A DNA stretch of 64,000 nt from Sweltsa coloradensis (GCA_024449915.1 JAMZAV010000168.1:558001-622000), one strand, 5' to 3'; counted from the stretch's first letter, positions 18,801 through 62,830 are shown. The notes: generated by a model from the sequence alone, not told the origin. Numbers and translations are program-made.

Positions 18801-21800
18801 GATAAGTTGTCTTTTCTAGTAGTAGCTACTGGTACTAATAGCATAATATAATAATAATTATTTAGCAATTGCTATTTTATTTTTTCATCAGTACCCTATT
18901 GAAATATCATTTGTTCTACAAATCAATTAAATTTTGACTAATAAATGCTGAAATTAGTATTTAGTCCAAAATACAGAGTTAAGACCAGAAATGAGCTACA
19001 AAATAGGCTACAATGCAGGAATTTGATTTACTTTGCAAAGTATGTAAGACTTGTTCAATGGTGCAAATTTAAAATTGAAAACAAATGTTGAATACTTTTG
19101 AGTTTCAGTATGCTGCCAGCTGTTGCTTGGGGCTTAGATTGCAATCATATAGTGTATATCTAGAGACTCACATATTTTAAGAGTGTGGCGGATATGCTCT
19201 TAGACCTTAGTGGTGGACAGAAGAAATGACCTAGGAGTATTAATGTCATGGAAATTGGAAAAATTGCTCGGTTATTCAGTTAAAATACTGATTTTCAAAG
19301 GACAACTAAATAAATCTAATTACAATAATGCAGTTGCATACAATAATGAACAATAGTTATTACGTAAAGTTTGAGATGTTGCTTAAAATGTCAGTGCATT
19401 GGTTAATCAAAGTTACCATATTTAATTTCTGTATCCCTATGTTTGTCCAGGTGTTTGACCCGCCCCCTGCCGGCTGCCGGCTGTGCATCGTGTCCACCAA
19501 CGTTGCGGAAACCTCGCTTACGATCCCCGGCGTGAAGTACGTAGTGGACAGCGGCCGGGTCAAGTCTCGTCTGTACGACAAGGTGACCGGCGTGTCAGCG
19601 TTCCACGTCACGTGGACCAGCAAGGCAGGAGCCAATCAGAGAGCCGGGAGGGCTGGACGGACGTCCGCGGGTCACTGCTATAGGTAGGTCGGAGCAGAGT
19701 TGGTTGGGTAAGCTACTTTATAATTCCTTTGTTTTTAAAATAAAAATAGAAAACAAAGTTGATGCGTTTTGTGAACCTTGCAAATATACAAAAAAACTGG
19801 TATCTTCTTAATTATCTCATCATCTCACATCTTTTTGTCACCAATATTATGTACCGGTAATTCATAATTTTATTTTCTACTTTACTTTATCTTACCTCGC
19901 CTATTTTAGTTCAATTTAGTCAAATCACTATGCAACAGAGCTCTATTGAGCTTGCTTAGGCCTAATCAATTTCAAGAATATTATATTATGTGCAGTTATT
20001 TGTTATGAATGTACCTTCCCTTATATCAGTTATATGTAATTCAGATTTATACATCCCTACAAAAGGAAATATGTGAAATACAAAAGGAACTTGTTACCGT
20101 CCCAGTTATTTATTAAAAAAATTGAACCACATAGTTCCATTTACAATTCCTACAAAATAATTTAGGAACTATGGCGTTCCTAATTTCTTTCCAAATGGAC
20201 CAAGCCAAGTTATATTACGTATTTATGCGATTGTGTAGTACCTACCTACCTAGTAATGCACCATGGAGTAATGCTTGCACCACTATTATACCAATGAAAT
20301 TTTAAGAAGTAATTGTTGTGCTATTAGAACATAATATGTTTTTGTATCGTAAATGTACTTCTTACAAGTGAAGTAGCCTAAATTGTTTTAACTATTCAGT
20401 ATTGTTTTCCAGGTTATACTCATCGGCCATGTTCAACGATCAGTTTGACGAGTTCGCTAAGCCCGAGATTCAGCGGAAACCGGTCGACGACTTGGTTCTT
20501 CAAATGAAAGCCATGAACATAGTCAAAGTGGTGAACTTTCCTTTCCCCTCGTCACCCGACGAAGTCCAGTTGAAGTCGGCAGAACGCCGGCTGCAGTTAC
20601 TGGGAGCATTGAAAGCTCCGGACAAGGGAGAAGGTAGGACATGCTGTTGACTTTACTATTTACTTTGTGATGGAATGATGTTGATTAAGGCATTTCTGCT
20701 GATTGGGAAAGGAGAAAGGAGACCAACGCCCTATCTGAAACTTGGAAGATATAGTGATCCCAACGAAAAAATGCAGGTGGCTCGAAATTCTTTTCCCAAC
20801 ATAACAACTATGTCAATTCTATTCACCCTAGCTCAGCGTGGATCTTGCACACGGAGGAACTCTGTGATCTAGCACAGATAAATTTTGCTTGCGTTGGTAA
20901 AATATATTTCTCTTTCATACACAAAGGCGACATTCCATTTACCGCGCATTCATTCTACCCCCACCACTACCAAGCATCTGCATTCTTTCGTTGGAGCAAG
21001 TATAGCTGTGTGAGACTAGATGATAACAGTATTGGTAGCCTCATGTTTATGATTTATGGGAAGCTAGCTATTGCTGTTGCCTTGTCGATTTAGCTCTCCA
21101 AAGAAATAACAAAACCTCCAGTCCCTTTATACCCCCCCCCCCTTCCCCCTTTGTTGATCAAGTGACTGGCAGCAAGCAAATGCAGCTAGTTTTCTGTGCA
21201 GTCATTTATATTTACATGTAACTTATTAGTTATCATATTCATCATATTCATCATATTCATCATATTATATACCCTACCTTGTCCATCTCCATGTCATATC
21301 ATATTTCATAATGTACATTTTAAATTAAATTAAAATTAAAATTGTTATCTTAGGGTACAAGATCTTTATTTTGTGTTCCTACACTTTTTTTAAACGTTCA
21401 AACATATCCAGTTATCTAAAAAATAATATTACATAGGGCCTACAAAACAAAATAAAAACATTTCTTATTGTATATTTTATTTTGTGTGCCACATATTTAT
21501 ACCATGTATATGCTAGGAAGCTTCGCAAACGCTTTTTCAGGCGCGTTGTTGGATGAGCATAATTTTTTTAAACGAAAAAAGCGTAAAATTGCCATTTTCA
21601 TGAGAAATTATTTTTCTATTGCGCTCAAATTTCACAAGAATATATTAATTTATAAAATTAGGTTTTTTTAAAAAAATTGTTACAATCGGATAAAGCATGT
21701 ACCGGTAGGTGTTGCAAGTCAAAGAAATGTAAAAAAACAAAAAAAACGTAAAATTGCGATTTTTTGGAAAAGTTATTTTACGATTCCGCTAAAAATTTTA

Positions 21801-24800
21801 CACCAATATGTAAATTCATAAAATTAAGGTTCTGTGAAAAAACCATTACAATCGGATAAAGCATGAAGGTGTTATAAGTCAAAGAAATGTTTGAAAAAAA
21901 AAAAAAATTGTACCATTGCAATTTTCATAAGAAATAATTTTTCAATTGCGCTCAAATTCCACACAAATATAGTAATTCATAAAATTTAGGTTCTGCGAAA
22001 AATTCATCACAATCGGATGAAGTATGTAAGCCTAGATGTTATAAGCCGAAAAAAGTTTTTAAAAATTAAAAAAAAAACATAAAATTGCGTTATTCTTGAG
22101 AAATAATTTTTAGATTGCGCTTAAAAAAGTGGCAGTTCTAAGTTCAGAGATTTCGAAGGCCTCCAGAAAATTTCATCGCAATTAGAGTATCAGTTTAGCT
22201 GGAATCGTGTTAACAGACGTACAAAAATACAAAAAAAAGCATTCCGGATTTGTTTCTCCAGTGTAGTGAAATGGAATCTTCGTTTTGCTCGCTATGCTCA
22301 TCCAATCAGTTAGCTGATTAAAATAATTTTATCATGTTATAGATGCCTAGAAATACAGTGAAACCTCTATCCATAGTTTCTCAAACTACTATTTTCCTGC
22401 ATCTATAGTGTTTTTTATACACTCCCATAATAAGCTTTATTGTTATTTTCTATTTGATCCATAGTTTTTCCGGATCCATAGTTTTTTTCAAGTACTCCCC
22501 TGAAAAACGATGCATAGAGGTTTCACTGTACTGTACTTTTGTGTTTTCTATGCCTGGATATTATAAACTGATGATCTTGCTGGTTCTAGACGAGTGGAGC
22601 AGCCGCATCACCCAACTGGGCCTGGCTATCTCTGCGTTCCCTGTGTCCCCGCGCTACGGCAAGATGCTGGCGCTCAGCCACCAACACGACCTGCTGCCGT
22701 ATACAGTTTGCATGGTGGCAGCACTGTCTGTGCAGGAGGTGCTGCAAGAGGTGCCCATATCGAGCTCTCTGGAGCAAGGCTCTCACAAGACCAAAGCGGA
22801 GTGGGCCAGAACAAGAAGACAGTGGGCGGGAACGGGCAACTCTCTCCTCCTGGGTACGTCTAGCTTCCTTCTCTTATATCTCGAGACGGACAGGGATATA
22901 TCGATACAGAATGGAAACCTTGTTTTATATTTAGTTAAATAATGATTTATATTTAAATTTAATATTTCCTATTAAAAAATATTGATCTTTGGTTGGTTAT
23001 CGCTTACTCGTCGATTGCGTCGGGGCCTGCAGGGTTGGCTTGGTCGCTTCGGTTTACTGTCCCCCACTGAAAATCAATTATATGACTGAGTTGGTAGACT
23101 CTAAATACAATTTGTAATTTTATATTTTTTATATTTAAATAAAAGCAAAAGCAATATTCAAATTTATTTTGTGTGGTGTTAGCCACTTAGGATACTACTT
23201 AGAATACAGAACAATTAAGATATACCGGGATTGTTACTGAATTTTATTTGATGGTAGGTGATCCTATGGTTCTGCTTCGGGCGGTGGGAGCGGCAGAGTT
23301 TGCGGGCGCGCAAGGAAAACTGGAAAAGTTCTGTACTGAAAACGGTCTGAGGTAAGTGAGGCGCTGTTGTTTAGTTATTGTGTACTTCTATGAAACTTCT
23401 ATCCTGCTCACTATATTTAGCTATAAAAACTGATAATAAACTTCAGCTAACATTAGCTATTTTGGAGGGAGGTTAGCAGTACCGTACATAATAATTGGCT
23501 CCATTAAGAAACTAACAAAAAACTTTTTAAAAATAAATTAACAGGTTTGGCATAAATTAGCAAAAATTAGGATAGTCAATTTCACAAACCTAATACGTAA
23601 ACGACATCAAACAAGCTCTTAAACAAATTTCTATGAATTATTAAGCCCTGCATGCAAATCCATGTTAATAATATAGATAGCTCTGTTAAAACAACTAATG
23701 ATGAAGTCCCTACAGAAGCTTTGTGGATTCAAATTTTGTAAATTCAAAATGTGTCTTTAGATCCCTTGGAATTTAAATTAAGGATGGATTCATCATCATC
23801 ATCATCATCATCAATCATTATCCATCGCCACTTCCCGCTTCAGGCAGAATAAACTTGGGTTTAGCAACCAAATTTGTCCACTTCTTTTTATCCTCTTTCA
23901 ATTGTATCTTTCCTACATCTTCCCAGCTCTCTCCTCTTGCCTCCAAGTCTCGTAAGGTATCCTTCCATCTCTGTTGGCCTCCCCCACCTTCTTCTTCCTT
24001 TTCTCACACATTCTCTTGGGCATCCTTTCTTCCCCCATTTGTTTAATATGTATGGATCACTGAGTTAAAAGTTAATTTACGGGACCCTAATTGTTATGAA
24101 TGTCCCACCATCTGATGAGCACAAACACTTCTCCTCCGCAGACACAAGGCGATCACGGAGGTGCGCAAGCTGCGTCTCCAGCTGACGACCGAGATCAACC
24201 TGAACGTTCCCGAGCTGAACCTGTGCGTCGACCCGTCCATGCGGCCGCCCAGCGAGGAGCAGGCGCGACATCTCCGACAGATCCTGCTGGCGGGCATGCT
24301 GGATCAGGTCGGCAGGAAGGTGGGGGAGGACGAGGTCAAGGAGACGCAAGACAAGGCCAAGATGAAACATGCCTACAGGTACAGACTACAGGTGTTGTTG
24401 CTTGTGGGAACGTTCTAAACTAGAAGCTAGAAGTAGTTCGAACCGAGAAATGTTTTATAATTTCACTTTCACGAACACCACTGGCTATCATTTTGGATAG
24501 CTAGGAAGAAAAATGATTGAAGAATCAAGCTTTCGGCATAGGAGAAAAAAAAATACTAATTTAATTTGACATCTTCTTCTGTCCTGCCACCACTTTGCCA
24601 CCACCAGAAGAAGATGGAGAGGCCTGTCTTCAATGCCGACCCAACGCAGAGTAAGACGTGGCAACAGATAATGACGATGATTAATTTGACTAATGTTTTA
24701 GGTATTTCACACACACGATCAATGGTCAGTTTTAATTCAAGCCATTCTCTAAGATAAAGTTACAGATTGTTTTCAGAAGGTTTTTGCCATTTCATCGTAA

Positions 24801-27800: not shown

Positions 27801-30768
27801 ATTATCCATCTCATTCAGTATGATTGGAGAAGGGTTGACAGGTTGGGAAAGCATAGAGAACATAAATCCCAGCCTGAAGGGCTGGGGGCAACAAAACTTT
27901 TCACCTGCTGATGACAACTGCAGCTAATTTAAAGTTGTTTGTTACCTTAATCCACGACGCGTTTCGTCCTTCTGGGACTCATCAGGCGGATGGTGGCCAC
28001 TAAAAATCAGCTAACTACATGCAAACAAAACTCACAACACATAACCAAACCTGTGGTAGGGCCACGCAAGAAGTAAATTCTGCAAGCATGTTGTCATCAT
28101 CAGCAAGGTTACTTCACACACCATTCATACTGGGGCACACAGTCAGCACAGACAGTAAGGGGGTGCTCGGGAGACAAGAAATCCATGACTTACCCTGGAT
28201 TCGAACCAGGACCCTTGGCAACAAAAGAAAAGCTGCCCCTCCTGCTGTTGCTGGGCAAGGGTGCCTCTTCATTCATTCTAAGAGAAAAGGTTAGAGATAG
28301 GAAGGGTGGAAAGTCACAACACAGCACAACCAGTGAGGGGGCTTCCCTCCTAGACTCTGGTGCTTGGGCGACACAAGAACCATGTACCTGGATTTGAACC
28401 AAGACCCGTGGCAACGAGAGAGGCTGCCCTACTAATTGTGACTGGGATTCGAAAACGAAAGTTTGAATGATCATGTTTTATCTATCTCTATTTTTCTTTG
28501 ATGTAATGGAATAACTAAAGAATGTAATTTTCCATTGGCATGCACACAGCGAGTGCAGGGATGTCATCACTATCAACCATGACTTGAATCACATTACAAC
28601 ACCGATGAAATGTAAAGACAAGTGGCAAATCAGTGTGCACCATTGCGGCCAATGGAAAACGCTAGAGTTGGTCTTTCGATTATTAATTCGTAATCGATGT
28701 CAAACCAATAATTTTGACTTCACATCAAGAAAAAAATCAACCTCATAATTTAAAAAAATGGGGGGGGAAATGTGATTTAAATAAAAAAGAAAATCCTCGT
28801 TAATGTAAAAACTAAAAATAGGTAATGTAATGACGAAAAAGTAAAATATATGGTCAAAAGCAAAATAAATTACCCTTTATTTTTTAAAAAAAGATGGCTA
28901 ATCGATGTTGAATCGAAAGTCAATTTTTGCTTCGACATCGATGTCCAATCGAATAATCGAGGTCAAGTCCCAACCCTAGAAAACGCTATAAGAAAGGACC
29001 TGCAATGTATTTTAAGGATTCTATTCCATAGCTCGGCCGCCTGAGAGTAAGCTACATTACCAGGCACTAACCAGCTTTCATGCGTTGTGTTCTCATTCAC
29101 AGGGCGAGCAGGATGGCAGCTACCGGTCGTTGAGATCGAGTTCCCCGTGACTATCGACTGCTACAAGTGGTTCGCTAGATTCCTGCTAGATGGCAGCGTT
29201 TGTCCCCGTCTTAAGAAGTACACACCTTGCTTGCTCTCCACTCCCTCGACGATGGTGAAGTCGTGGGCCAAGTAAGTGATCCATTATTGCTCGAGGTATG
29301 TGCCACATAGCTCGTTGCTCTCGGAAATGTACGTATGTATTTCTACTGTCAGTGCAGATGGTTGCAAATCCCCTGCTTAATGTTTGTTGTAGGAGGTTCT
29401 AAGATATAAGTATTGACCTTTTTTTTTAATATAGGCCGCCATCGAGTATTAGCTGAATTGCGATTTTGTCCATTCAAATTTTAAAGTAGGCCTACGTTAT
29501 AATTTTATATTATCATCACCAAAATGCCTGTATTTAATAGCTGCACTCACTTTTTTAACTAGTACATTTTTTTATTAATACCTATGGCATGTATTTGCAC
29601 TAATATTAAATATGGTACTCAAGTGTATTTTTTAACCTTGTAGTTCTTAATCTGCTACTTGAGTAGCTAACCACTTTTTGGCAATGTAATTGTTTTATTG
29701 AAAACTTTTCTGTAATTGCTATAATTCACCTTAAAATTCTGATGCTAAATCATAGCACGGCACGGGTGTCTGATTGTAGTGGATTAGAAGTCCGTGGAGA
29801 CCTGGGTTGTATGTCCCAGTTAGGCCTCAATACTGTAATTTTTGGATTCTACCTTAGAGCTTTTTTGAAGGAATGTTTATCTAATAATTGTCTCTTCAAT
29901 TGTAGTCTGCAATCGAGAACGTCTGTTTTGCTGAATGCCCTGTTGGATAAAGAAGTTCATACGAAAGAAAAACTACTTCAAATGTGGGAAAAGGAACCAT
30001 CATGTAAGTTGTTGCATTCAACTGACGTAGTGTTAAGTTTTACCGCCTCAATGTTTTGTACAGAACAAAATCTGTTAACAATTTAAACTACATAATCCCA
30101 AGATGCATTGGCTCCGCACTGACAAAAAATATAAAGTTAATCTATTGCTCTTCCTTTTATATAGCGCCAGTGAACCTATTTTAATATAGGCCTAACATTT
30201 TTGATTACACATTGTAAACTCCACTCATTTTTTTGAGATATCCTTCCAAATGTCAATTTCTATTTTCCAGGCAACATTGTCTTTGGATTTTTTTCATTTG
30301 TTTAATTTCAGTTAATTTGTCACACTGCCATTTTAAAACCATTTTATTTTTCTTCTCGGCCCTTTGAGTACTTGTTGCTTAGCCAAACATATTGCACTAC
30401 CTACGTACTTTCTGTGTTATGCATTTATTTATAAAAGCCTTCTACATTGGTCACTCATATGCACATCTCAAGGACATGCGAGCATATGAAGTTGTCAAAT
30501 TTGTGCTAAACTACAGCCCATGTACAAATTTACATTTCGATAACATGGGTCTTGATAAAACGTAAAAACAACAACATAAAGTGTCATAAACCATAAAACC
30601 AAAACATTTAAAACAACTGGATAGAGCAATGTTGCAATTATGCAATAGTCATACTCAACGGTAGCCACCACATTACAACTTATTATTCCAGATTTATTGA
30701 AACAATACCAAAAATGGCTGCCAGAGTCTGCACACAATGACGTATCAATAAAGTGGCCTCCGCTCTAA
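3885..30768 (+). CDS. DHX37: DHX37/kurz, DEAH-box ATP-dependent RNA helicase (damaged near 27.4 kb)
   Basis: Nucleolar DEAH/RHA helicase that in eukaryotes works with U3 snoRNP in 18S rRNA and 40S assembly. Exons: 3885-3965, 6666-6848, 11710-11988, 12448-12935, 13430-13619, 15222-15437, 16597-16732, 17430-17530, 18201-18345, 18463-18578, 19451-19683, 20413-20633, 22590-22853, 23258-23351, 24142-24378, (27377-27467 damaged), 29103-29271, 29906-30003, 30692-30768. Apart from the joins around the damaged exon, phases agree at every junction. The N-terminus MGKSRKGYN and a lysine-rich exon 2 suit a nucleolar protein. Motifs: [11 protein letters not shown] (about residues 323-332), Ia [14 protein letters not shown] (420-423), [28 protein letters not shown]. 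The WH/ratchet/OB region ends in a tryptophan-containing WPPL tail, like the family C-terminus. About 50-60 residues expected before 29103 are missing. Identity is firm; integrity is doubtful. Confidence 0.92.
4241..4473. mobile_element. Foldback MITE, Mutator-like, family member 1
   Basis: Near-perfect terminal inverted arms of about 33 bp: CTCTTTCGGATGGTATGCCC on the left and its complement on the right. The element sits between two copies of GCCTAGGCC (4232-4240 and 4474-4482), a 9-bp direct repeat. Nine-base target duplications with long inverted ends are typical of Mutator-like elements. The internal sequence contains GCGACGTTAAAGGTT, shared with the element at 26528-26751. The surrounding DNA is full of GGCCTA, so this copy alone would not prove the duplication. 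Lies in DHX37 intron 1. Confidence 0.7.
4586..4899. mobile_element. Foldback MITE with repeated CGTAAGGC-type motifs
   Basis: Terminal arms of about 50 bp are near-perfect reverse complements: ATCATTCACAATCAGTTCTA on the left against TAGAACTGATTGTGAATGAT on the right. They continue through AAGTCGTAAGGCGCAAGG. The interior repeats GTCGTAAG several times. There is no coding capacity and no clear target duplication. Lies in DHX37 intron 1, 110 bp after the previous element. Confidence 0.75.
5640..6215 (+). mobile_element. LINE 3' end with (TTGAAC)n tail
   Basis: Begins with a C-rich GGGTCCCGCCCTCTACACAA stretch, runs through a T-rich 3' UTR-like section and ends in AATAAAAACTTGAACTTGAA repeats at about 6178-6207. 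A short tandem tail of this kind is the usual 3' terminus of CR1/L2-type non-LTR elements. No reverse transcriptase frame remains. Lies in DHX37 intron 1. Confidence 0.5.
8085..9044 (-). pseudogene. LINE reverse transcriptase segment
   Basis: A 319-codon open segment with the RT blocks in order: [40 protein letters not shown], and the thumb start SLGLTIAS. The catalytic YADD is intact. The frame is cut at both ends by shifts: the upstream part continues at 9214-8966 and the downstream part at 7958-7572. Confidence 0.85.
10431..11306 (-). CDS. LINE ORF1, PHD-finger protein
   Basis: A 291-codon intact frame. Residues 10-65 hold Cys-x2-Cys, C-x4-C, H-x2-C and C-x2-C arranged as a PHD-type zinc finger; the rest is low-complexity and basic, with Pro/Arg-rich runs. 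ORF1 proteins with a PHD-like finger are known in CR1- and Jockey-type LINEs. Its end overlaps the start of the endonuclease frame by about 40 nt. Confidence 0.75.
   Translation of the reverse strand: MADSEDHLICGSCQLKIIESDRVVNCVGICSQTFHVKCSEVTEKIFKVLQENKSLCWKCVSCVHHNLTSSEYLVMELNMMKEALHLLSSRVSANAKQISIGLQPTSQPYADKNKGNNLSDSVRPRTRLQTKINTMTTPQGRPIPPHDRQMPTLTEQSPLLPKRGIIERGEPDSMPTTASYSEMARRKKGASLAEEEEEVKLHEDRPKVNTILVRQDYNESKGNQNCGPGPMGKLVVGLPRPTPDKGTGPGRTSPRPKEVNRIVKKKSTHKPALIGTSQSCLQMLPVASKKA
11540..11675 (+). repeat. Dispersed short repeat family R1, copy 1
   Basis: Shares ACTCGTCGATGGTGTCGGTG, then CCC-x-ACTGAAAATCAG, then TATGACTGAG-type sequence with copies at 22990-23115 and 34008-34125 and an inverted copy at 26884-26975. 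About 120 bp, noncoding, SINE-like in size, but no pol III boxes are certain. Confidence 0.55.
12448..12935 (+). CDS. DHX37: DHX37 exon 4: acidic region plus Walker A
   Basis: A 488-nt exon of 162 codons plus two bases. The first third is rich in Asp, Glu and Ser (12448-12620), as in the family's acidic linker. The second half starts the RecA1 domain, with a Q-motif-like approach and the P-loop GETGSGKT encoded from 12871. Acceptor TTTTCAG, donor GTACGT; the split AG|C serine codon is completed by exon 5 at 13430. Confidence 0.9.
14016..15126. mobile_element. hAT-type nonautonomous element with nested insertions
   Basis: Ends CAGGGTTGCTG and GGAAACCCTG are inverted and flanked by perfect 8-bp duplications AATTAAAC (14008-14015 and 15127-15134). 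Eight-base duplications are the hAT signature. The interior holds a partial second hAT-like end at about 14154 (TAGGGCTGGGCAAAA) and the LINE fragment 14472-14997. Lies in DHX37 intron 5. Confidence 0.85.
14472..14997 (+). mobile_element. 5'-truncated LINE (RTE-like), with 11-bp target duplication
   Basis: Flanked by GATAGCATCGA at 14461-14471 and 14998-15008. It encodes the C-terminal part of a non-LTR reverse transcriptase protein; [12 protein letters not shown] followed by a WWQDRRR motif is typical of the end of such polyproteins. It ends in a TGATGATGAT tail. Shorter copies of the same 3' end lie at 24580-24680, 27110-27215 (minus) and 49247-49390 (minus), and an upstream segment at 37695. 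Confidence 0.85.
15222..15437 (+). CDS. DHX37: DHX37 exon 6: DEAH box and SAT motif
   Basis: A 72-codon exon in phase 0 on both sides, between TTTCAG and GTGAGC. It carries [10 protein letters not shown], the catalytic DEAH of motif II that coordinates Mg-ATP, and MSATLR, motif III. It follows a 1.6-kb intron filled by a hAT element with a LINE fragment inside. Base composition is clearly more GC-rich than the flanking intron. Confidence 0.92.
15780..16050 (+). repeat. Dispersed repeat R2, copy 1
   Basis: About 250 bp, partly similar to 20785-21030: shared landmarks are TTCCCAAC, GATCTAGCACAGATTA, ACACAAATGCGACATTCC or close variants, and CGCGCATTCAT-type sequence. No coding potential. The adjacent inverted-repeat element follows directly. 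Confidence 0.55.
16045..16530. mobile_element. MITE with about 33-bp imperfect inverted ends
   Basis: Left end ACCACGTTCATCACTTGAGC and right end GCTCGAGTGATAAACGTGGT are inverted and extend inward through CGAGTCCGGACTGA. The interior repeats GTTCGTACTCA and ACTCAGTTCG-type words. The target duplication is unclear. Lies in DHX37 intron 6, close to exon 7. Confidence 0.7.
16738..17010 (-). pseudogene. Penelope-like element fragment, GIY-YIG endonuclease region
   Basis: The minus-strand frame contains [17 protein letters not shown] followed by DYVGL. This is the cysteine-flanked 'NVVY-x-L-x-C ... Y-x-G' signature of the Penelope-type GIY-YIG endonuclease; the same pattern recurs at 61956-62354. 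Truncated and degenerate. Lies in DHX37 intron 7. Confidence 0.6.
17019..17160. mobile_element. pogo/mariner-type MITE
   Basis: Ends CAGTTGTCGTTCGACAATTT and AATTATTGAGCAACTACTG are imperfect inverted repeats bordered by TA on both sides (17017-17018, 17161-17162), the duplication expected for Tc1/mariner-pogo elements. No coding sequence. Confidence 0.6.
17593..18120. mobile_element. pogo-type element with CCGTAT ends
   Basis: Inverted ends share GGCCCGAATATAGC and CCGTAT. The left end is preceded by TA; the right border is degraded. The interior has a C14 run at about 17692 and no recognisable transposase. Lies in DHX37 intron 8. Confidence 0.55.
19451..19683 (+). CDS. DHX37: DHX37 exon 11: helicase motifs V and VI
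   Basis: A GC-rich exon encoding the end of RecA2. Visible motifs are [11 protein letters not shown] (V) and QRAGRAGRT (VI, with the arginine finger). Acceptor GTCCAG, donor GTAGGT; the split AG|G arginine leads into LYSSAMF in exon 12 at 20413. Confidence 0.92.
20785..21030 (+). repeat. Dispersed repeat R2, copy 2
   Basis: Matches 15780-16050 over most of its length, including TTCCCAACATAACAACTATG, GTGATCTAGCACAGATAAA, CTTTCATACACAAAGGCGAC and CATCTGCATTCTTTCGTTGG. Divergent and noncoding. Lies in DHX37 intron 12. Confidence 0.55.
21525..22312 (+). mobile_element. Element family E1, copy 1: GGATGAGC/GCTCATCC ends, internal tandem blocks
   Basis: Bounded by TTGGATGAGCAT on the left and ATGCTCATCCAATC on the right. 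Between them are about four diverged tandem blocks of roughly 160 bp (starting near 21580, 21745, 21910 and 22078), each with AAAATTGC, TTTTCATGAGAAAT and CAATCGGATAAAGCATG-like words. The last part (CAGTTCTAAGTTCAGAGA) matches the copy at 43318-44107. No protein recognised. Confidence 0.6.
22356..22528. mobile_element. pogo/Tigger-type MITE
   Basis: Ends CAGTGAAACCTCTATCCATAG and GCATAGAGGTTTCACTG are inverted and flanked by TA on both sides. CAGTgAAACCTCT is the typical start of pogo/Tigger inverted repeats. Length 173 bp; the interior repeats CCATAGTTTTT. Lies 61 bp before DHX37 exon 13. Confidence 0.85.
22990..23115 (+). repeat. Dispersed short repeat family R1, copy 2
   Basis: Contains CTCGTCGATTGCGTCGG, CCCCCACTGAAAATCA and ATGACTGAGTTGGTAGACTC. 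See copy 1 at 11540. Confidence 0.55.
23780..24045 (-). mobile_element. RTE-like LINE 3' fragment with (TCA)n
   Basis: Starts with eight TCA units (the tail of a minus-strand insertion) followed by CT-rich DNA whose complement reads like the basic C-terminus of a non-LTR polyprotein. Resembles 25400-25500. Lies in DHX37 intron 14. Confidence 0.4.
25514..26872. mobile_element. hAT-type nonautonomous element
   Basis: Ends TAGGGCTGTGCGAG and CTCGCACAGCCCTA are perfect inverted repeats flanked by the 8-bp duplication ATATTTAT (25506-25513, 26873-26880). Subterminal regions are rich in CTCGCTCG and TCGAAA words on both sides. No transposase frame. It carries a nested Mutator-like foldback element at 26528-26751. 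Lies between DHX37 exon 15 and the damaged exon. Confidence 0.92.
26528..26751. mobile_element. Foldback MITE, Mutator-like, family member 2
   Basis: Arms CTGGTTCGGTTGAGAGTGGC and its exact complement continue through CAACTTTT. The pair is flanked by CAGCATTTG on both sides (26519-26527, 26752-26760), a 9-bp duplication. The interior has two direct copies of AAATAGCGACGTTAAAGGTT, also found in the element at 4241-4473. It inserted into the older hAT element. Confidence 0.8.
26884..26975 (-). repeat. Dispersed short repeat family R1, copy 3 (inverted)
   Basis: Reverse complement of the R1 core: CCCAGAACTGATTTTCAGTG and GACGTCGACACCATC. It begins right after the hAT element's right target duplication. 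Confidence 0.45.
27377..27467 (+). pseudogene. DHX37: Damaged DHX37 exon: apparent fusion of two exon remnants
   Basis: After acceptor CGACACAG the phase left by 24378 reads CGDMEDPV, fitting the conserved (A)Y-[KR]-C-x(3)-EDPV start of this region. About 12 bases later a different frame reads DQPEPRF then [10 protein letters not shown] and ends at donor GTGAGC with one base over, exactly what GRAGWQLP in the exon at 29103 needs. The roughly 50 residues normally between these two stretches (the FIHPSS to LLPxYC part of the OB-fold) are absent. The 91-nt exon also breaks frame: the length needed is 2 modulo 3, but 91 is 1 modulo 3. It could be a genomic deletion, a bad assembly join, or a real exon pair misread here. 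Confidence 0.55.
27829..27956 (-). repeat. Repeat R3 (Penelope-associated), copy 1
   Basis: A 128-bp unit beginning at the ribozyme cleavage site and reading on the minus strand through CAGCTGATG-like sequence to CCTGTCAACCCTTCTCC. Copies on the plus strand are at 55125-55245, 58428-58530 and 62555-62695. Each has CAGCAGGTGAAAAGTTTTGT, CCCAGCC(CTTCAG)GCTGG and CTTTCCCAACCTGTCAACCC. Its position next to a hammerhead motif and near Penelope fragments suggests Penelope pseudo-LTR debris. Confidence 0.7.
27950..27991 (-). ncRNA. Type I hammerhead ribozyme motif
   Basis: Minus-strand reading: stem I ATCCGC; core CTGATGA; stem II GTCC with loop CAGAA and GGAC; core GAAA; stem III ACGCGT; cleavage triplet GTC; then stem I GTGGAT. 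ATCCGC pairs with GTGGAT over six positions (one G-U). Every conserved core base of a hammerhead is present. Stem III is only A-U and C-G closed by two bases, the minimal form known from Penelope-like elements and retrozymes, where the palindrome ACGCGU lets two copies dimerise. Predicted cleavage is between 27956 and 27955. Activity is inferred, not shown. Confidence 0.85.
28180..28445 (-). repeat. Two tRNA-like (SINE-type) modules in tandem
   Basis: On the minus strand, GTCCTGGTTCGAATCCAGG (near 28190) and GTCTTGGTTCAAATCCAGG (near 28390) each resemble a pol III B box, about 200 bp apart, both followed by similar GTTGCCA-type sequence. This suggests two tRNA-derived SINE heads. No cloverleaf can be drawn fully, so these are not tRNA genes. 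Confidence 0.4.
28663..28978. mobile_element. hAT-type MITE
   Basis: Ends TAGAGTTGG and CCAACCCTA are inverted and subterminal regions repeat CGATTATT / AATCGATGTC. Flanked by the perfect 8-bp duplication GAAAACGC (28655-28662, 28979-28986). 316 bp, noncoding. Lies 120 bp upstream of the DHX37 exon at 29103. Confidence 0.9.
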
Positions 30769-44029: not shown

Positions 44030-47000
44030 ACCCGAGCTAAATTTTTTGGGGGGTCAGTGAAATTGAAGTCTTCGCTTCCGCTCGCTACGCTCGCTCGCTC
44101 ATCCAACAAGCTAGATAGACAAGACTTTTAACATTAGGATGGAAGTCACTCACAAGACAACAAACTACGGTAATGGCCTACTGTAGATTATGGTGGTACC
44201 CTAAAGGTAGCCAAACTTGAAAACACTCACTCAAAACAGTCTTCAAGTTCATTACACAATAGACTTTCCCTAACTTGTTTCCTGAATGCTCGGTTCCTTA
44301 GCGTTTTAACTTTTGTAGGAAGCTGTTATATTGGATGAAACCTCTATGTTTTATATTTACGCTGCCAAACTTACAAGTGTTGACGTGTTCAATGTAAAGG
44401 TTATTTTTGTTGCGAGTATTGTAAGCATGTTTGTTACTATTTAGATTGTAGTCTAAATTACATAGAGAATATTTGTTTACCATGCTATGCACAAATGAGA
44501 GGGTTTGATGTTTGTTTACGAGTCTAAGTGGTAGGATTTGATTGTTCCTATACATGTCTGTGCGATGCATGTCTCTTGGATAGTTGAAAACATTACGGAT
44601 TGCTCTATTCTGAGTGACAATTAGAGTGTTTAGTTTTGATTTGGATGCTGTTCCCCATATGGTGTTAAGATAAATCAGGTGGCTGTGTATGTATGAGTAA
44701 TAGAGACTCTTAAGAGTAGATACGTTTATTATTATAGAAATTCTTTTCATAATGCCTGTGATAGGTAAATTTTTTTTTCCACATGAGCTATGTGTTTTTC
44801 CCATGACAGTTGGTCATCCAGCATTAACCCAAGGTACTTAACCATGGATACTTGAGTAAGTGGTGTGTTATTAACTGTTAGTTGTAAATTATTATTGTCT
44901 CCATTCTCATTCCGAGATTTAAAACACCATATAGTTGGTTTTTAAAATGTTGAGGGAGAGCTTATTTAACCTAAGCCATTCACTTAGTATGTTTAAATCG
45001 TGTTGCATTACGATAGCCAAAGATTGAAGAGATGTTGCAAAGTAGAACAGGCTGGTGTCGTCTGCAAAAGATTGAAGATGGCCTAATATGCCCGATTGAA
45101 AAAGGTCGTTAATATACACAAGAAAAAGAAGAGGTCCAAGAATTGAACCCTGCGGAACACCACAACTAATGCTTTCTTCTGTTCCATTCACTCCATCAAT
45201 AGTAACAAACTGTTTCCTGTCTTCCCTCTCTCATATTTCCACTTATGATCCCCTCTTGCTAGATAGTTAGCCTTCCTTAAAAGGCTGTTCATCTCCCCCA
45301 TCCTTCGTGATCTCTAGTCACTCTATAGGCCTAGGCCTACATTTTCCCTAGTCTGTCCATCCTTTGTCTGACCTCTAGATCTTCCCATCCTAGATCTCTT
45401 ACCATACTGGAGACACTCTCATACTTCCTTACTACATGTCCATTTACTACTTCCTCCTTCCATGTATTCCCCCTTTCTAAGAACCCTTCTTGCGGCTCTT
45501 TTCTGTAGCCTCTATCTCATCTACTTCCCCCTTCCTATACGGGTCCCATATAGCTCCAGCATACTCGACCACCGGTCTCACTAGGGTTTTGTATGCATGC
45601 CCTTTTAATTCACTACCGGGTACTTGCCCCTTTTAGTGTCCGCATAACAAAATTAAGGCATCTAAAACCTTTCTTAGAAACCTCCTTGACGTGTTCCTCC
45701 CAGCTGAGCTTATACTGCAGCCACACTCCTAGATATTTAATTTTTTCCACTTTTCCAGTTCCTTCTCCATGAGTGAGTAACCTTCCCCTAGTCCTCGGAC
45801 TATCCTCCTTCTTGTGAACCTTACCCATTTACATTTTCAGTGTTAAGGCTCATCTCATTGCCCTTTACCCATTCCTCCAGTATAGTCAAGTCCTGCTTTA
45901 GGTCCGTTACATCCCTAATATTCCTTATGATTCTATATATTACACAGTCATCTGCGAATAGTCTTACCTTGGCCCCATCCTGTCAGCAATGTCATTTATA
46001 TATATTGCAAAAAGTAAGGGTCCCAGTACACTCCCTTGCGGTACCCCTGATGTCACTTCCACTTCATTCGATAGATCCTCCCCTACCTTGACCCTTTGTT
46101 TCCCTATCCCTAGAAATTCCTTAACCCATCTGTTAACCCTTTAATAGTCATCTATTACTCCTTCCAGCTTCCCTATTTTTTGTCATGGGGAACCTTGTCT
46201 AATGCCTTTTCAAAATCAAAGAAAAACCCCCAAACCACCCAATTTCCCCCCTTTTCAAGTGATCTACCCAGGTCATTTACTAGCCTAAGAGCTGCGTCTC
46301 GCATGAGTACCCCTTTTCAAACCATGCTGACCCCTTTTTATCCACTTTTTCCCTCTTATGATTCCTTATGTAGTCCCCACTCACCCTTTCCATAATCTTG
46401 TCCAACGATGTCAGTGATATTGGGCCCATAGTTCCCTAGTTTCCCCCCTTTTCCCCCCCTTTTTATGGGATAACTAAATAAGGTAAATTAAGATCTGTGG
46501 CAAGCCGCAAGACTTTCTCTTAAGATTTTCCTCCATTCCACCTTGTGGTTCATACTCCATTACTGATGTCACTGGCCTTAACTCCTTTCTGCTTTTCGGT
46601 GAGCCCATTCCAATCAACTGTTCTACCCAGAATGGATTAGACTACTTGCCCAAATCCGTCCTCCACATTCCTCTCTTGTACTTCTATATGTGACTTGACA
46701 TTGTGATCATTTCTGCCTAGGTTGCAAGTTGCACTATATGCAGCCCTAACATAAACTCTCTGGAAATTGGTTGATTTGTTTGACCCTGGGCATATGATTA
46801 TTTATTCTGATAAACCCGCAGCATACAAACTCACAAAGACACGCCAAAGACGTAACAAAAACAAAAAGTCAAATTTTCTTGTAGCGGTGGGGTGGGGGTT
46901 CCCTCTTAGAGATCTGAGTCACAGAATAATTACACACTTGCAGATGATTGAGTGACTTGCTTAATCCAGCTTGCGGTATGTGAGGCTTCCACTTGTTTAC

Positions 47001-53000: not shown

Positions 53001-56000
53001 GATCACACAAACAGTAGGCCTAGACATCCTTCCAAATCATAATGCGGACTAGGCCTAGGCCTAGCGCCTAGGCCTAAACTACTGAGCTTGGGATAAGCCT
53101 CTAGTATGCCTACCTAGGCCTAGCCTAGGCCTAGGCTAGCAAGTGCACATTTATTGTAATTTGGAAAGATAGGGTAGGCCTAGGCCTAGGCCTAGCCTAG
53201 GATGATCACTAAATACAAAATAAACAAAGTTATAAACAAAAATATGAGTTATACAAAATAAACTTACCACTTGGAGTTTTAAATACTTTCTTGCATGTGT
53301 TGCACATGGAAGTGTCTTTGTCAGCAGCACTAGTGTTCATTACAGAAAAAATCCCAAATTGCACTCTTAGCCCTTTTTTTGGACGTCGCTTCAACCGGCT
53401 GCGGATCATCCGCATCTTCCTCGTCATTATTATTCATAACTTTTAGTTTTTTGACTTATAAAAAAATTATAGGTGTAAAATGTAAAAACGTTTTCCGTGT
53501 GCGTGATATGAAACAGCTGGAGCTTCAGTGACGCAATGACGGCCATATGCACACCGGTATATCGATCGATCGCAAATCGCAGTAGTGGCCATATAATTAT
53601 ATCGACCGATCGCAAATCTCAGTGGCAGTCAAATATATCGATCGATCGATCACAAATCGCGAAGGCGCAGATTTGGCGCCGGATTCGAAATCGGCCGAAT
53701 ACTTCGAAATTTTGGATTTGGATTCGACTGACGAATCGAATTCGAATCTTCAAAAGATTCGATCCAGATTCGATAATTTCAAAGCTTCGCACACCCCTAT
53801 AAAATACCTTCAAAAAAAGGTTTAAAAAACAATCCTGCGGGGCAATGTTGGGGGGGCCTCACCCCCCTAAACTCTCCGCGCTTTGCCGCTATTGTATCTT
53901 GTATTTGTGTTGTCCCGGATTTTATTTTCAGGAATATTGTCACCCTAGTTTCCTACCCATTCTATGAAGGCCTCTATATAATACATACCACTTCCACATC
54001 AATGCTATTTTTAGCTCTAAATTTAATTTGTTATATTTCACCCTCATTCATTCTCTTTCATGTCAATCATGAAATCTTACAAAAATGTTTAATTAAAGAG
54101 GTAATGAGCATGTACAATACTAACTTTTTCACATCCTGTAATGTAGGCTCCACCCGACGTCAGAACTAAATGAAGGGGTCTGGTTATTGATCTCGCTTGT
54201 GGATATTCGGTTAATTTTGGTGTCGTTATAGTCGCGGAGCCATCACTCGATGAGGTCATCTAACAGACCGTGGGGGAAAATGGTGGCCCTATTTTATTAT
54301 TACATTTGGTCTATTGGGACTTTAAACACTTAGCCCAGGGCATAGTTAATATTAGAACAAGGTTTGTATAAATGGATTCCCAAACACTGCATAACCTTAT
54401 ATGCAGGCTTATTTCTAGTGTAGAAATCAATTAAAGCCAGTTTTTCTAGTTAGGCCTACATTAATAGGGCAAGTCGTCCTTTTCTTGCCCATCCACTGGG
54501 TGCTAGCTTAGTGTGACTTTAAAGGAGCCCTTTAGAAAAAATCCAATATTCACCGAGTGAGTGTCATTGGTGTCATTAAAATATTACCCTTGATTTAATT
54601 CTGACGCCTAGTGTACATTATAGTTAATATTTTTTTTAATCTGACAAGAGATAGCTAAGACAAATCAATGGTGTTGCAGGCATGCTACTTAAGTCCTCGC
54701 AACGTTGAGGCGCTTATCTTGAAGGGAACCATCTTGATCGACCTAAAGAAATACGAAGACGCGGCGTCACATTTCCGAGAAGCCATGCAGGTGAGTGACT
54801 GAGTATTAATGATGCAATAGAATAGACTCACTAGTTTACATGATCTGTCTGTGACAAACTGACATCTAGTTTTTAATAATATGGTTTTAGTGCCACTTTT
54901 TTCAATGAAAATACATGATAATATTAAATCTACAATCTACAAATGTCTAATGTACACATCGTATGGAAATCACATGCCTGCCTAACCAAAATCAATCCAT
55001 AAAATTGCCACGTGTAATAGATTTGTTAAAAATAATTAGTATTGTAAAGATTTGCTAGCCGTCAGCTGCCAGATTTTATAGGACCTAAAAATGTGTTGGA
55101 AAATTCACTCATGTATAACAACTTTTAATCAGCTGCAGTTGTCATCAGCAGGTGAAAAGTTTTGTCGCCTCCAGCCCTTCAGGCTGGGATTTACATTCTC
55201 TTTACTTTTCCCAACCTGTCAACCCTTCTCCAATCTATAAATGATAAATATGTACCAGCTAACCTGTTCCCTATTAGAGGTAATGAAAAATGGTGATATA
55301 AAAACGCAAATTTCATTTTAAAAAACCCAAATTTCGTGTTTTTCGCGATTTCGAAAAAAATGTCAAAAACGTTTCAAATAAATCCAAAAATCCAAAAAAA
55401 ACAAAAAAAACGGAGCCCCTTAAGTTAGGGATGACATTGATTCCAAAAAGCTAAAATTGATCATTGTGACCTAAAAATCCATTCAGAGTCGATTCCCAAC
55501 AAAAAATAAATATTTGTACGCACCATTATTTTGGTGGACTATTTCCGCGGAGTCCAAATAGGCGCCGTTATTTCCGCGGTCTATTTCCGTGAAGCCCGTG
55601 ACGCGCGCGTTACGTTGTCTCGTGGGGTAAGAGGTAAAACTGAAGTCCACATTTGACCAATATGCATGCTTGGTATCAAAACATTCCAAATTTCAACATC
55701 TTTCTATTGCAAAACTGTCTAAGTCCACTTTAGGTCTAGTAACTGAGAATTGCATGTTGTTTTATTGAGTAAGTCCACTGTGTATACAGTTTTGTTGAGA
55801 AGCTAAAACTGTTTAAGTCCAAAATGGACTTATTCACTTTAAGCGTCTATATTTTCAAAGCATAAAGTGATTAAGTCCACCACATTTTGATCAGTCCATC
55901 TAGAAGGCTACTCTTAGTTATTTCAAGTCAGAAAGAAGAAACTCATCTTTAGTATTTTTTAAAGTTAATAACTAATGTAAGTGAATGTCATAATTAAATC

Positions 56001-59000
56001 AAACAACTGGCATAACATTGATCTTACTTTGATATTAAAAGTGAATAAGTCCTTCCGAACATAATAACCATCCAAACCAAAACTGCTTAAGTCCTTCACC
56101 TAATTAATAACTCTTCAGATATTATTATTTTATCTGATTTAATTGTTTACTATGTTTCAAGAATGTTTTATAAGTGTTATAGTGAAATTACATCAATATC
56201 TAACTTAATTTGATTTTAGCAAACTTTCAAAGTCCCCTAGCTCAAAACTACCTTTTTGGACTTAATCAGTTTTAGCTCTTACCCCACGTCTGTTTGATGA
56301 CTGTATTGCCTACCGCACGCGTAATATTCAGTCTGGACCGGCACCTCCACCAAAACTGGACCGGCACTTCCACCATCCCTTACATTTTGCACTCTAAACG
56401 GTGCAATTTCGCGATTTAATTCGCGTTTTGACCAGTTTCTTACAATTTTGTTCGTTATTTTGCGCTATACACGATATTTCGCGAATTTCGCGATTTCATA
56501 ATGTGTTTTTTCCATCTCTAAATGATGTAATTCGTCGACAATATTACATTTTAGGCAATAAAAAGGACATTTTTTAAAAAAGTCGCAAATTTCGTTATCA
56601 CCATTTTTCACTACCTCTACCTATAATAAATTTATTCAGCAAATTATAGGTTTTGGTGATAGGCCAGCATTGGCAAACCTCCTCTAACCAGAGTAGTAGG
56701 CCTGGCGTTTCTAGTGACTCAGGGTACAAGTTGGCGTACCGGACGTCTATACTAATAATATCTTGTTATTCAAATGCTATCAATTGTCTTTGTCATGAAT
56801 GGGTAGGTAATGTTATGTTTGTCATCATGTCACATCAACATGGGCATGCCGGATATTTTAAACTTTTAATCTTCTGAACTGTGGGCGTAGCTGAAACCCA
56901 GTCTGAGTTCATATCGTAATTCCTTTCTTCTCAGATCTCACCACATCGATACGAGCCACATCATGGCCTGGTGGAATGCTACACGGCTCAACGCAAGTTC
57001 CGAGAGGCACTGACATTTAGCGGGAACGCTCTGAAACAGCTCGGAGAAACGCCCAGATCTCTTGCCGTAAGCGCTATTCTATTAGATTATCATGTGTACT
57101 TGATGGCTGAAATGCTTCTGATATTAATTGTCACTTCTACGAACTCATAATAATCAACAATATTGTTTAAAGACAGATTTGATTTCATTTCATTACACTT
57201 GGTTATAACATATCCCACAAAGTTCTCAAATAAGTATATCAGGTATCAAACAACTAATTAATTATACTTAAATAATGATGATATGATAAAAACACAGTCT
57301 AATATGGTATTGCCAATTCATTGGTTCTGAAAGTCGTGCATAGTTAAGAGAGAAACTGAAATAGACCTTTACATAGTGAAGATAAGGAGGTAATGAACAT
57401 GTAGCCAGTGTGTGCATTGGAATTGGAAGTGTAGGCCCTACATATTTTTACTGTATTATTATATCAATATCAGTTATCTTCTCAGAAGTGTACACATTTA
57501 CTAAGTTGTATAATTCTTCCCTGTACCCTTCAAATGTGAACAACTGTCCGTAATGTTAATGTTCCTCAAACTGTGTACTACTAGTACAAATATTTCAACC
57601 CTGTGGTGTCTCTCCAGCTGAACGCATCTGTGCTGGTGAAGGACGCTATCGGAGTGAGCGTCCACGGGTGGTCTCGAGCCCGTCAACAACTAGAGAAGGC
57701 GCTGAGTCAGGACCCGTTGTATCTGCCGGCCGTCTACCTGTTGGTCGAGGTGTTTGAGCAGGAGGTGAGTGTTCCGTTTCTCTTGTGTCGTCAACAATGT
57801 GTTTTGTCACCTTATTAATGTTGATTTAGATTCGTCAAACTTATTTCCCCCTGAATTAGTAAGACTAGATTATAGTATTGTTGTTGTTTATACTGTACCC
57901 TAGTAATATTTTTCATTCCCCTTAAAAACTAAGTTTATGATTTCTCGATAAACATGAAAGTGTTATGTGGCCAAATGAATGAGTTTAAACTAAAGATTAC
58001 TTAGCAAATATACTTAATGTTTGCTTATTCTGCAAATATACAGTTATGAATTGACCTGGTTCATATTAATACAGCCACCATGTGCACCTGTAGGTAACAT
58101 AGTTGATGTATCTCACTTGTCATTGTTCTTGCCTTCTAGCAAGGGAATCTCAACATGGCCATCAGTCTGCTGGAGAAGCAGGTCGCTCTGCAGCCGTCGT
58201 GTAAGCTCCACCAGATGCTGGGGGACTTGCTCGTCAGATCCAACGAGGACGAGAAGGCTCTGAACCACTACAACTGTGCACTCAAGTGAGTCAATCTTAC
58301 TCTTACAGTGAAACCTTGATGTATCGTTTTTGAAGGGAAACAAGAAAAAATGCGGGAAAACACAAAAAGACCAAAAACGAGAAAAAACACTTTTTACTAT
58401 CTGCGGAAAAAAATGAAAACTTTAAATTAGCTGCAGTTGTCATCAGCAGGTGAAAAGTTTTGTTGCCCCCAGGCTGGGCTGTATGTTCTCTTTGCTTTCC
58501 CAACCTGTCAACCCTTCTCCAATCTCTCATATTTATGCCTAGGGGTTTATCACCACAATGCAAAAATACAACCGGTGGTCTATATCTGTCTGTTAGAGGT
58601 TATTTTGTATTCAAATTTGTAGTTTGTAGAAGTTTGTAAAACAAAATGTACTTATTTTAAAATTTAAATTCTCATCATCGGGGTAGGCTACATTTTTTCC
58701 TATTTTTTAAGCACATTTCAATCGTGAATCGATTTAAAATGTAGATTGAGAAAATATGTGATTCTAATTTGCAATTTCAGCGCCAAAAATAGTATTTTTA
58801 TTATGTATAAGAAAGTTGTGCATTATATATAATACACTAGCATCAGCTGTTAAAACATTCATTCCATTTCAATAAAAAAAAACTGTTTCCCCTTGCTCCA
58901 GATTGGATCCGGACAACCGACGCGTGTTGGAGGGAATCCACCGTATCGACAACTCAACGCACAAGCTCGACACGACGTACTACATGGCTGTGAACGACGA

Positions 59001-61609: not shown

Positions 61610-62830
61610 AATGACATAAAGAGATAGGGTGCCACCAGCTTACCTTGAATGGAGTAGGCGCGCCGTGAAAGATAACATAAACACAATACAAATACACAAT
61701 AAACAAATAATTTACATAATCAAAACGTTTTCGGTCCACGTGACCTTCCTCAGTGAGTGTAGAGAGAGAGACTGAGTTGAAACTAAAACTAGGCTAGCTG
61801 TTGGCTAGGGGTGAGGGGAAGGGGTGAGTGAATGAGTGTGGATTGGGTGACAGGGAGGGGGGTGGGGGAAGAGGGAGGAGAATCACCGTAGGTTTAAATT
61901 TGTTTTTTGGCGGAATTTGCAGATCCACTGGTAGGCCAGTTCCCATCTTCTCAGTTCACCAGCTTGTATGGTAGGTGGGACAGACCTTATGACACAAGCT
62001 GTGAAACAGGTCATAAAAGGTAGGCCATGCCCATAAGCGTGCAGTGCCACTGGTTTCTCCAAATTCTCTTCTCGCACGTCCTGCCTGTGCCCATTCATCC
62101 TCATGCGTAGTGTTGGTGGTCAACCCAATATACTCAGCAGGACATCGCGTACACTTAAGTTGGTACACCACGTTGCTGGTCCCACAGGTGTTGTTGTTGT
62201 GTATCTTGTAGGTCTTGCTGGTGAGGTGGGCAGTGAACGTCCTAACAGGCTCGTGCATGGGGCAAGTCTTGCACCTGGGTCGGTCGCAAGGGGAGGACCC
62301 ATGCACCACAGCTTCCGCTTGTTGGGCTTTCTGCGGATCACTTCTCACCAGCAAGTCATTTTAGTGGATAGCAACTCATTATTTTACAACATAAACAACG
62401 TTTAGGAAATTAACAAAAATTACTTCCGTCATCAGGTAATTTTGAAAAACAAAAAATCATATGATCAAAAACATATCAAAACTTTGTTTTTCTTGTAAAA
62501 TAAGGAGTTGCTTTCCACTAAAATGATTTAAATATTGTAAAATCATCTCTTCTAACGCGTTGTGGATAAGGTAACAACTTTAAATTAGCTGCAGTCGTCA
62601 TCAGCAGGTGAAAAGTTTTGTCGCCCCCAGCCCTTCAGGCTGGGATTTATGTTCTCTTTGCTTTCCCAACCTGTCAACCCTTCTCCAGTCTTTAAAAGTA
62701 TGTATGTAGTAGTATGTAGTAGATAAAGTATGTGTTTGAAATGAATGTCAAAAGGCTGTATCTGTGAATGACATAAAGTGGCGCGCCTACCCCATGAAAG
62801 GTAAGCTGTTAGCACCCTATCTCTTTATGT
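61610..62830 (-). mobile_element. Penelope-like element fragment with inverted terminal repeats
   Basis: Bounded by inverted copies of GACATAAAGAGATAGGGTGC ... GTAGGCGCGCC (61612-61663 and about 62781-62830). The minus frame 62354-61956 encodes the cysteine-rich linker and the start of a GIY-YIG endonuclease: CDRPRCKTCP, then [41 protein letters not shown] / GAAAACG stretch near 61725-61755 (minus) is a degenerate ribozyme-like or pseudo-LTR segment. No reverse transcriptase is present. R3 copy 4 lies inside. Confidence 0.7.
62555..62695 (+). repeat. Repeat R3 copy 4 with truncated hammerhead 3' half
   Basis: Begins ACGCGTTGTGGATAAGG, matching stem III and the 3' strand of stem I of the hammerhead at 27950-27991 (with GTT in place of the GTC cleavage triplet), then continues as R3 to CAACCCTTCTCC. 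The CTGATGA half is missing. Confidence 0.65.

Follow-up and report, generated by a model that had tools for sequence, protein, structure and literature searches.

A type I hammerhead ribozyme motif of the kind known from Penelope-like elements in a DHX37 intron

Introduction

Type I hammerhead ribozymes without helix III have been reported for Penelope-like elements (PLEs) in the available portions of three publications (PMC7761336, PMC6155905, PMC7229834), the first of which cites Cervera and de la Pena 2014 for the minimal type I hammerheads of these elements. The sections available on the Anolis PLE PAc describe a start codon that lies inside the hammerhead and is followed by the cut 26 bp later; PAc insertions end at reverse-transcription starts 111-118 bp into the frame, may carry an optional tail of 30-40 bp and, as the authors infer for their element, are copied from uncut RNA (PMC11167929). 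Hammerheads are also described, in excerpts of the respective papers, for animal non-LTR retrozymes, which are tandem repeats of 150-450 bp with a hammerhead in each and include amphibian representatives with a very weak helix III (PMC7229834), and for Schistosoma Sm-alpha, a non-autonomous retrotransposon whose ribozyme has tertiary contacts (PMC6155905).

Results and discussion

An initial annotation had placed a complete type I hammerhead, with each of its parts, on the minus strand of a 64-kb stretch of DNA (the window, meaning the whole stretch analysed), and had named a covariance-model search as a check. The coordinates proved exact and the core intact (Table 1): minus strand 27991-27950 matched RF00163 (Hammerhead_1) with 41.2 bits and E = 4.7e-7, the gathering score being 34, and the alignment spanned model positions 1 to 45, passing over the loop positions in helices II and III. 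On an 801-base stretch the same match reached E = 5.9e-9, and no further hammerhead was found in the window up to E = 10. From 5' to 3' the parts are ATCCGC, CTGATGA, GTCC-CAGAA-GGAC, GAA, ACGCGT, C and, past the cut, GTGGAT. Judged by RF00163, the motif has what defines type I, namely the core CUGANGA..GAA..H17, stem I (6 bp, one of them G-U) and stem II (4 bp), with stem I open; GTC precedes the predicted cut, between 27956 and 27955. A relaxed descriptor, drawn up post hoc once the motif was known, matched nowhere else in the window and in none of 100 first-order random windows. Given these figures, and a sister copy that carries the 3' part of the ribozyme, a chance match is vanishingly improbable, and at the level of sequence the motif is confirmed as a true hammerhead of type I that lacks a monomeric helix III, the kind reported for PLEs.

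Table 1 Features of the hammerhead locus and related sequences in the window
Feature	Coordinates	Strand	Basis
Type I hammerhead ribozyme with intact core bases	27950..27991	minus	Rfam RF00163 match
Palindrome ACGCGT (helix III), which can serve only between two copies	27957..27962	minus	fold prediction
R3 tail downstream of ribozyme, with common 3' end	27822..27939	minus	four-copy alignment
Second R3 copy, starts inside ribozyme (AACGCGTTGTGGAT)	62554..62690	plus	93% identity, 142 columns
Third R3 copy, without ribozyme	55117..55235	plus	92.4% identity
Fourth R3 copy, without ribozyme, deletion breaks hairpin	58418..58524	plus	90.4% identity
tRNA-like unit 2, upstream of ribozyme, membership unproven	28162..28238	minus	exact B box GGTTCGAATCC at 28197-28207
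tRNA-like unit 1, membership unproven	28359..28429	minus	exact B box GGTTCAAATCC at 28390-28400
Penelope-type endonuclease remnant, two pieces, two frames	61886..62357	minus	77% to 191-aa database protein (P0001)
Second Penelope-type endonuclease piece	17014-16850	minus	47% to same 191-aa protein (P0001)
Degenerate hammerhead-like motif CTGAGGA..GGTC..GACC..GAAAACGTT	61720..61753	minus	by eye, in 3' UTR of endonuclease remnant

The annotation as complete stands for the sequence, but not for the predicted fold of a lone monomer. The palindrome ACGCGT leaves no room for a loop and therefore a single copy has no helix III; its predicted minimum-energy fold is not a hammerhead, which agrees with the lack of monomeric helix III that marks the minimal hammerheads of PLEs. 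The homodimer is predicted to form a double hammerhead in which ACGCGT pairs with itself, with an unremarkable energy gain that was matched by 681 of 1000 shuffles. Minimal hammerheads of PLEs also lack tertiary contacts between loop 1 and loop 2; when six flanking bases were included on each side, a 3-bp outer helix I and a 3x3 internal loop were predicted here.

Such a loop leaves canonical loop-loop contacts possible, and it is one of the points in favour of regarding the locus as an animal non-LTR retrozyme monomer that spread via circular RNA. As in those elements, a type I hammerhead is carried by a short repeat that is dispersed in an animal genome and here has no recognised gene, and since very weak helices III occur in the amphibian retrozymes described, weakness of this helix alone is no argument against the assignment (PMC7229834). 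In the published description the 150-450 bp units stand in tandem (PMC7229834), whereas the ribozyme site shows no tandem array and only a single hammerhead is present; we regard this origin as improbable. The initial annotation had named PLEs and retrozymes together as carriers of such minimal hammerheads; the former half is supported, the motif being of the kind reported for PLEs, and the retrozyme reading is not. Six IMG/VR viral contigs (L001-L006, of which L001 and L005 have the same sequence) carry hammerheads with the same core and stem II pattern; unlike the motif described here, these have helix III hairpins, as judged by eye, and none reaches the RF00163 gathering score; they were taken as unrelated.

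The position within a DHX37 intron was also borne out, as DHX37 matches lie at 19.4, 22.6 and 29.1 kb on the plus strand and the hammerhead falls between exons. This placement would suit a host-recruited ribozyme that regulates DHX37. The ribozyme is, however, antisense to the gene, and the DHX37 transcript carries only its complement, so that no role in that transcript follows from its position in the intron; moreover, with a divergence of 7-10% between the copies of the adjoining repeat, R3, an intact core requires no selection. Such recruitment is highly improbable. The single copy is very likely silent, because the window has no second hammerhead and the motif is antisense to DHX37.

Alignment of the four R3 copies upheld the described junction of ribozyme and repeat, with three further copies of which one keeps the 3' part of the ribozyme; the ribozyme is whole in one of the four and absent from two. 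All four share an identical 3' end, 134 nt past the cut, whereas their 5' ends differ: three begin at positions 598, 622 and 625 of the query, and the fourth continues upstream of the ribozyme. A common 3' end with differing 5' ends fits the prediction of target-primed insertion. The copy at 62554, in which GTT replaces GTC ahead of the cut, starts 8 nt before the cut site and therefore derives from RNA that was uncut there. The R3 tail is predicted to fold into a hairpin, CCCAGCC-CTTCA-GGCTGGG, and its last 45 nt are rich in pyrimidines (34/45). At the 27822 copy, the one searched for a target-site duplication, none was convincing (the longest was 9 bp at 1.3 kb), which speaks against a PLE insertion. 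In query coordinates no more than 3 nt separate the starts of the two shortest copies. This also speaks against a PLE insertion and would fit R3 being a separate module.

Comparison with PAc, as far as the available text on that element goes, reveals a similar arrangement with different details (PMC11167929). In both cases there is no monomeric helix III, an ATG lies 26-27 nt ahead of the cut, copies end at a fixed point little over 100 nt further on, and some are truncated at the 5' end. At the present locus the ATG lies in the hammerhead core, with 27 nt between it and the cut and 161 nt between it and the common 3' end of R3; its use is putative, and a stop ends its frame after 11 codons. 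It corresponds to A6-U7-G8 of the core, whereas the PAc start codon follows G8, at stem II; the end falls at +161 rather than +111-118, and is pyrimidine-rich rather than AC-rich (PMC11167929). These differences count against a PLE origin. An insertion end that is fixed a short way past the hammerhead nevertheless resembles the pLTR and tail anatomy described for PAc (PMC11167929).

The endonuclease pieces noted in the annotation are present, as two matches to one 191-aa protein, and neither matched Pfam; we take them to be Penelope-type from their motifs. Their occurrence in the same window favours a PLE origin. No tie between them and R3 emerged: one R3 copy sits 197 bp from a remnant in opposite orientation and neither remnant leads into R3. 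With the 191-aa protein as query only these two remnants were found, none attached to R3, and Pfam revealed no reverse transcriptase in 10 ORFs of at least 95 aa near the R3 copies. That no R3 copy carries PLE coding sequence, and that the larger remnant does not run into R3, speak against a PLE origin; this remnant is context, and a family shared with R3 is only a candidate relationship. The degenerate hammerhead-like motif beside it had no Rfam match even at E = 10. Unlike PLE hammerheads, then, the present one has no joined ORF and no tandem partner in the window. A PLE would have an attached ORF with reverse transcriptase and GIY-YIG endonuclease, and the locus is at most a PLE-derived or PLE-moved fragment; instead of pLTRs or a partial tandem with a hammerhead in each, the 64 kb hold a single one. 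Insertions do end at a fixed point a short way past the hammerhead, the hammerhead being whole in one of four copies, and a LINE or SINE would look alike.

SINEs also show a common 3' end with 5' truncation, and the locus could be a SINE-like composite, moved in trans, with a tRNA-like head (two B-box units serving as RNA polymerase III promoter), the hammerhead and, as its tail, sequence taken over from a PLE or LINE. The only two exact B boxes (GGTTCRANTCC) in the window both lie on the ribozyme strand, about 200 and 400 nt upstream of it, in units that are 77% identical, one of which is preceded by a 10/11 A-box match. Against this, there is one copy only and the units may be older sequence that happens to lie alongside; no tRNA gene was called at them, the best A box of the other unit is 9/11 with its spacing off, and one-mismatch B boxes are not above chance in the window (8 versus 5.5 expected, with 8 or more in 20 of 100 shuffles). 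We consider the composite unlikely. The Sm-alpha element has a pol III promoter. The locus resembles Sm-alpha, as described in the available text, in that a short dispersed element carries a type I hammerhead with what may be a tRNA-like promoter nearby, the membership of the tRNA-like units here unproven (PMC6155905). A more specific arrangement, doubtful at best, would be a tRNA-headed SINE that combined a Penelope-type hammerhead with the reverse-transcription tail of a PLE and parasitised a PLE rather than a LINE, its ribozyme serving to trim transcripts made by polymerase III or by read-through.

We favour, as probable, an old insertion made by PLE machinery, of which the feature would be the 3' end, belonging either to a PLE or to a short element that such machinery moved. 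The insertion would comprise pLTR-like sequence, the type I hammerhead with no helix III of its own as a monomer, and ~130 nt of tail, whose end would mark the starting point of reverse transcription. If a source RNA carried at least two ribozymes, the ACGCGT helices III of two of them would pair and cutting would follow GTC. Copying by the element's protein would begin about 134 nt past the cut, yielding copies with a common 3' end and shortened 5' ends. The hammerhead itself is a real but ordinary example of a kind already known from Penelope-like elements.

A hammerhead ribozyme between DHX37 matches

The Rfam type I hammerhead model (RF00163) matched the minus strand at 27991-27950 with 41.2 bits, above the gathering score of 34; the alignment covers model positions 1 to 45, omitting loop positions. 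The E value was 4.7e-7 with the window searched against 4227 families and 5.9e-9 when the local stretch alone was searched. The initial annotation had placed a complete type I motif here and had called for such a covariance-model search, and both the location and the match were thereby confirmed. It was the sole hammerhead among 7 Rfam matches in the 64 kb, although the threshold was opened to E = 10. Read directly, the ribozyme consists of ATCCGC, CTGATGA, GTCC-CAGAA-GGAC, GAA, ACGCGT and C, followed by the predicted cut (between 27956 and 27955) and GTGGAT. A hammerhead descriptor, composed post hoc when the motif was already known, had no matches in 100 random windows of equal first-order composition. 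The looser combination of CTGA.GA and a GAAA within 6-30 bases was found four times in the window (plus 7311; minus 61753, 27985 and 3294), and only the one at 27985 passed the descriptor. Judged by its sequence, the hammerhead motif is real and of a kind already known.

DHX37 matches were found on both sides of the ribozyme, in agreement with its assignment to an intron of this gene. The ribozyme and DHX37 occupy opposite strands (minus and plus, respectively), hence the DHX37 transcript carries the ribozyme complement, and the ribozyme could influence DHX37 expression only if an antisense transcript were made.

Features of the window discussed in the text
Feature	Position	Strand	Remark
DHX37 match	19442-19684	plus	matched stretch, not exon border
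DHX37 match	22553-22870	plus	matched stretch, not exon border
DHX37 match	29060-29272	plus	matched stretch, not exon border
tRNA-like unit 1	28359-28429	minus	upstream of ribozyme
tRNA-like unit 2	28162-28238	minus	upstream of ribozyme
R3 copy 1	27822-27939	minus	joined to ribozyme
R3 copy 2	62554-62690	plus	93% identity
R3 copy 3	55117-55235	plus	92% identity
R3 copy 4	58418-58524	plus	90% identity
Larger endonuclease remnant	62357-61886	minus	
Smaller endonuclease remnant	17014-16850	minus	

Predicted folding of the ribozyme

The palindrome ACGCGT makes up the entire helix III together with its loop, hence a single molecule cannot form this helix. The predicted minimum-energy fold of the monomer (-10.7 kcal/mol) differs from the hammerhead fold, which without helix III is predicted at -9.5 kcal/mol, and the homodimer (-27.5 kcal/mol) is predicted to be a double hammerhead in which ACGCGT pairs with ACGCGT. 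The dimer energy was rejected as proof, because 681 of 1000 shuffled sequences equalled the energy gain on dimerisation. When six extra bases per side were included, the predicted fold gained an outer helix I of 3 bp and a 3x3 internal loop, therefore loop-loop contacts may be possible. Passages of three papers (PMC6155905, PMC7761336, PMC7229834) describe dimeric cutting as demonstrated for newt and axolotl motifs and as proposed for motifs of Penelope-like elements (PLEs).

Copies of the R3 repeat

The dispersed repeat R3 lies directly 3' of the ribozyme, and four copies were aligned in all, which bears out the earlier count of three copies besides the one joined to the ribozyme; the relatives compared are those within the window. 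In 3 of 3 comparisons the match to the 27822 copy stops at query 739, whereas the starts (query 598, 622 and 625) differ, one being inside the ribozyme at AACGCGT and two near the R3 start. Target-primed reverse transcription, in PLEs, LINEs and SINEs alike, yields copies that are 5'-truncated and have their 3' end in common. The ribozyme and R3 could also be read together as a retrozyme, which we regard as improbable. The full hammerhead core is present in one of the four copies. One further copy had been said to keep the 3' half of the ribozyme: the 62554 copy does start inside the ribozyme, but its triplet is GTT. The 8 nt preceding the cut site are retained in this copy, therefore its template RNA would have been uncut there.

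R3 was also considered as the start of a PLE reading frame, with an outcome counted neither for nor against it. One frame is open through R3 in the 55117 copy; in the copy joined to the ribozyme, the frame set by the ATG meets stops, as do the equivalent frames of the 62554 and 58418 copies. The few differences between R3 copies that were checked by eye alter amino acids. Beyond the shared 3' end, the flanks of the four copies gave the impression, by eye only, of being AT-rich. CTGATGA is also found on the opposite strand of every R3 copy (plus 27908-27914; minus 62604, 58446 and 55148); none of these passed the hammerhead descriptor, and they are probably a coincidence.

Two tRNA-like units (71 and 77 bp), with 77% identity to each other and at a distance of 191 bp, lie upstream of the ribozyme. 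Each contains an exact polymerase III B box, and these two boxes are the only exact matches of GGTTCRANTCC in the window; the A boxes are weak, and tRNA calling returned none at either unit. The units, seen in one copy in the window, may be a SINE-like head or an unrelated neighbour. A SINE with a tRNA-like head and a tail of hammerhead and R3 is an unlikely reading of the locus, and it is because of this possible head that the ribozyme motif has a moderate interest. Going by titles and the opening lines of abstracts, none of the open-licence papers listed dealt with a PLE-dependent SINE that has a hammerhead; a passage of PMC6685494 mentions Penelope elements of butterflies that are short and nonautonomous.

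In IMG/VR, a hammerhead pattern retrieved six contigs, all with helix III hairpins by eye, none of which reached the Rfam threshold, and R3 patterns had no matches in viral contigs. An R3 pattern match in a Flavobacteriaceae genome contig was dismissed as chance, its alignment stopping at 26 bases. Two further hammerhead patterns were run against public collections: one gave no matches, and the single match of the other was discarded, having only 18 bases in common with the element.

Penelope-type endonuclease remnants and other repeats

The endonuclease pieces reported earlier for this window were recovered as two remnants by a database protein of 191 aa (contig of 860 bases), the single one of 3 candidates passing E 0.001, with 77% in two frames for the larger and 47% for the smaller. 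Pfam gave no match in either remnant and PDB sequences none for the larger (best E 0.93), hence the name 'Penelope' is our assumption from a motif pattern and this relative. The larger remnant is followed in its 3' UTR, some 130 bp beyond the stop codon, by CTGAGGA-A-GGTC-ACGTG-GACC-GAAAACGTT (61720-61753 minus), which includes the palindrome AACGTT. This motif, to which Rfam gave no match, looks like a degenerate PLE hammerhead. The 62554 copy of R3 is 197 bp from the larger remnant, in opposite orientation.

The same region (61604-62840) has 55-bp inverted arms (61610-61664 / 62780-62834, 89%) enclosing the endonuclease remnant, a 51-bp inverted repeat (62353-62403 / 62479-62529) and R3 copy 62554, with ACTAATTTAT on both outer sides by eye; it may be a DNA transposon into which other elements were inserted. 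Elsewhere, a non-LTR-type retrotransposon remnant (8085-9044 minus; reverse transcriptase domain PF00078, E 1e-31) lies among other long ORFs of the minus strand (7572 to 11318), and another reverse transcriptase piece lies at 44919-45230 (E 6e-11). A large palindrome at 52544-53357 (arms of 117 bp at 98% and 74 bp at 88%) surrounds CCTAGG-rich repeats and an 81-bp tandem.

Origin of the element

The attached coding sequence that would mark PLE membership was not found: the endonuclease relative had no match near the R3 copies other than 62554, and Pfam detected no reverse transcriptase in 10 ORFs near R3 copies, where two matches far below the cut-offs (E 0.11 and 0.17) were disregarded. Consequently, we do not call the element a PLE. 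For PAc, a studied Anolis PLE, passages of PMC11167929 state that the frame begins at hammerhead stem II, after G8, that the cut lies 26 bp after the start codon, that genomic insertions end where reverse transcription begins, 111-118 bp into the frame, and that a tail of 30-40 bp is optional. According to the same passages, cleavage was observed only with the protein present, and the authors inferred uncut RNA as the main substrate. In the present element, the distance of an ATG is 27 nt to the cut and 161 nt to the 3' end that the R3 copies share. Unlike in PAc, this candidate start falls on A6-U7-G8 of the core, its frame ends after 11 codons, and the tail finishes in a pyrimidine-rich stretch where that of PAc is AC-rich. 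On balance, it is fairly likely that a PLE insertion, or a short element mobilised by PLE machinery, left the ribozyme and R3 as its 3' end; our confidence in this was lowered slightly, and that in the SINE and retrozyme readings raised a little, because the start codon of PAc differs in position and an outer helix I with an internal loop is predicted.

The role of minimal PLE hammerheads was called unknown in a passage of a 2020 review (PMC7761336). A genome in which a short element has both an intact ribozyme and sister tails truncated at the 5' end offers a simple natural dataset, in which the share of copies starting exactly at the cut site would show if reverse transcription uses cleaved or uncut RNA. 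The sequence of the one informative copy (62554) points to the copying of uncut RNA.
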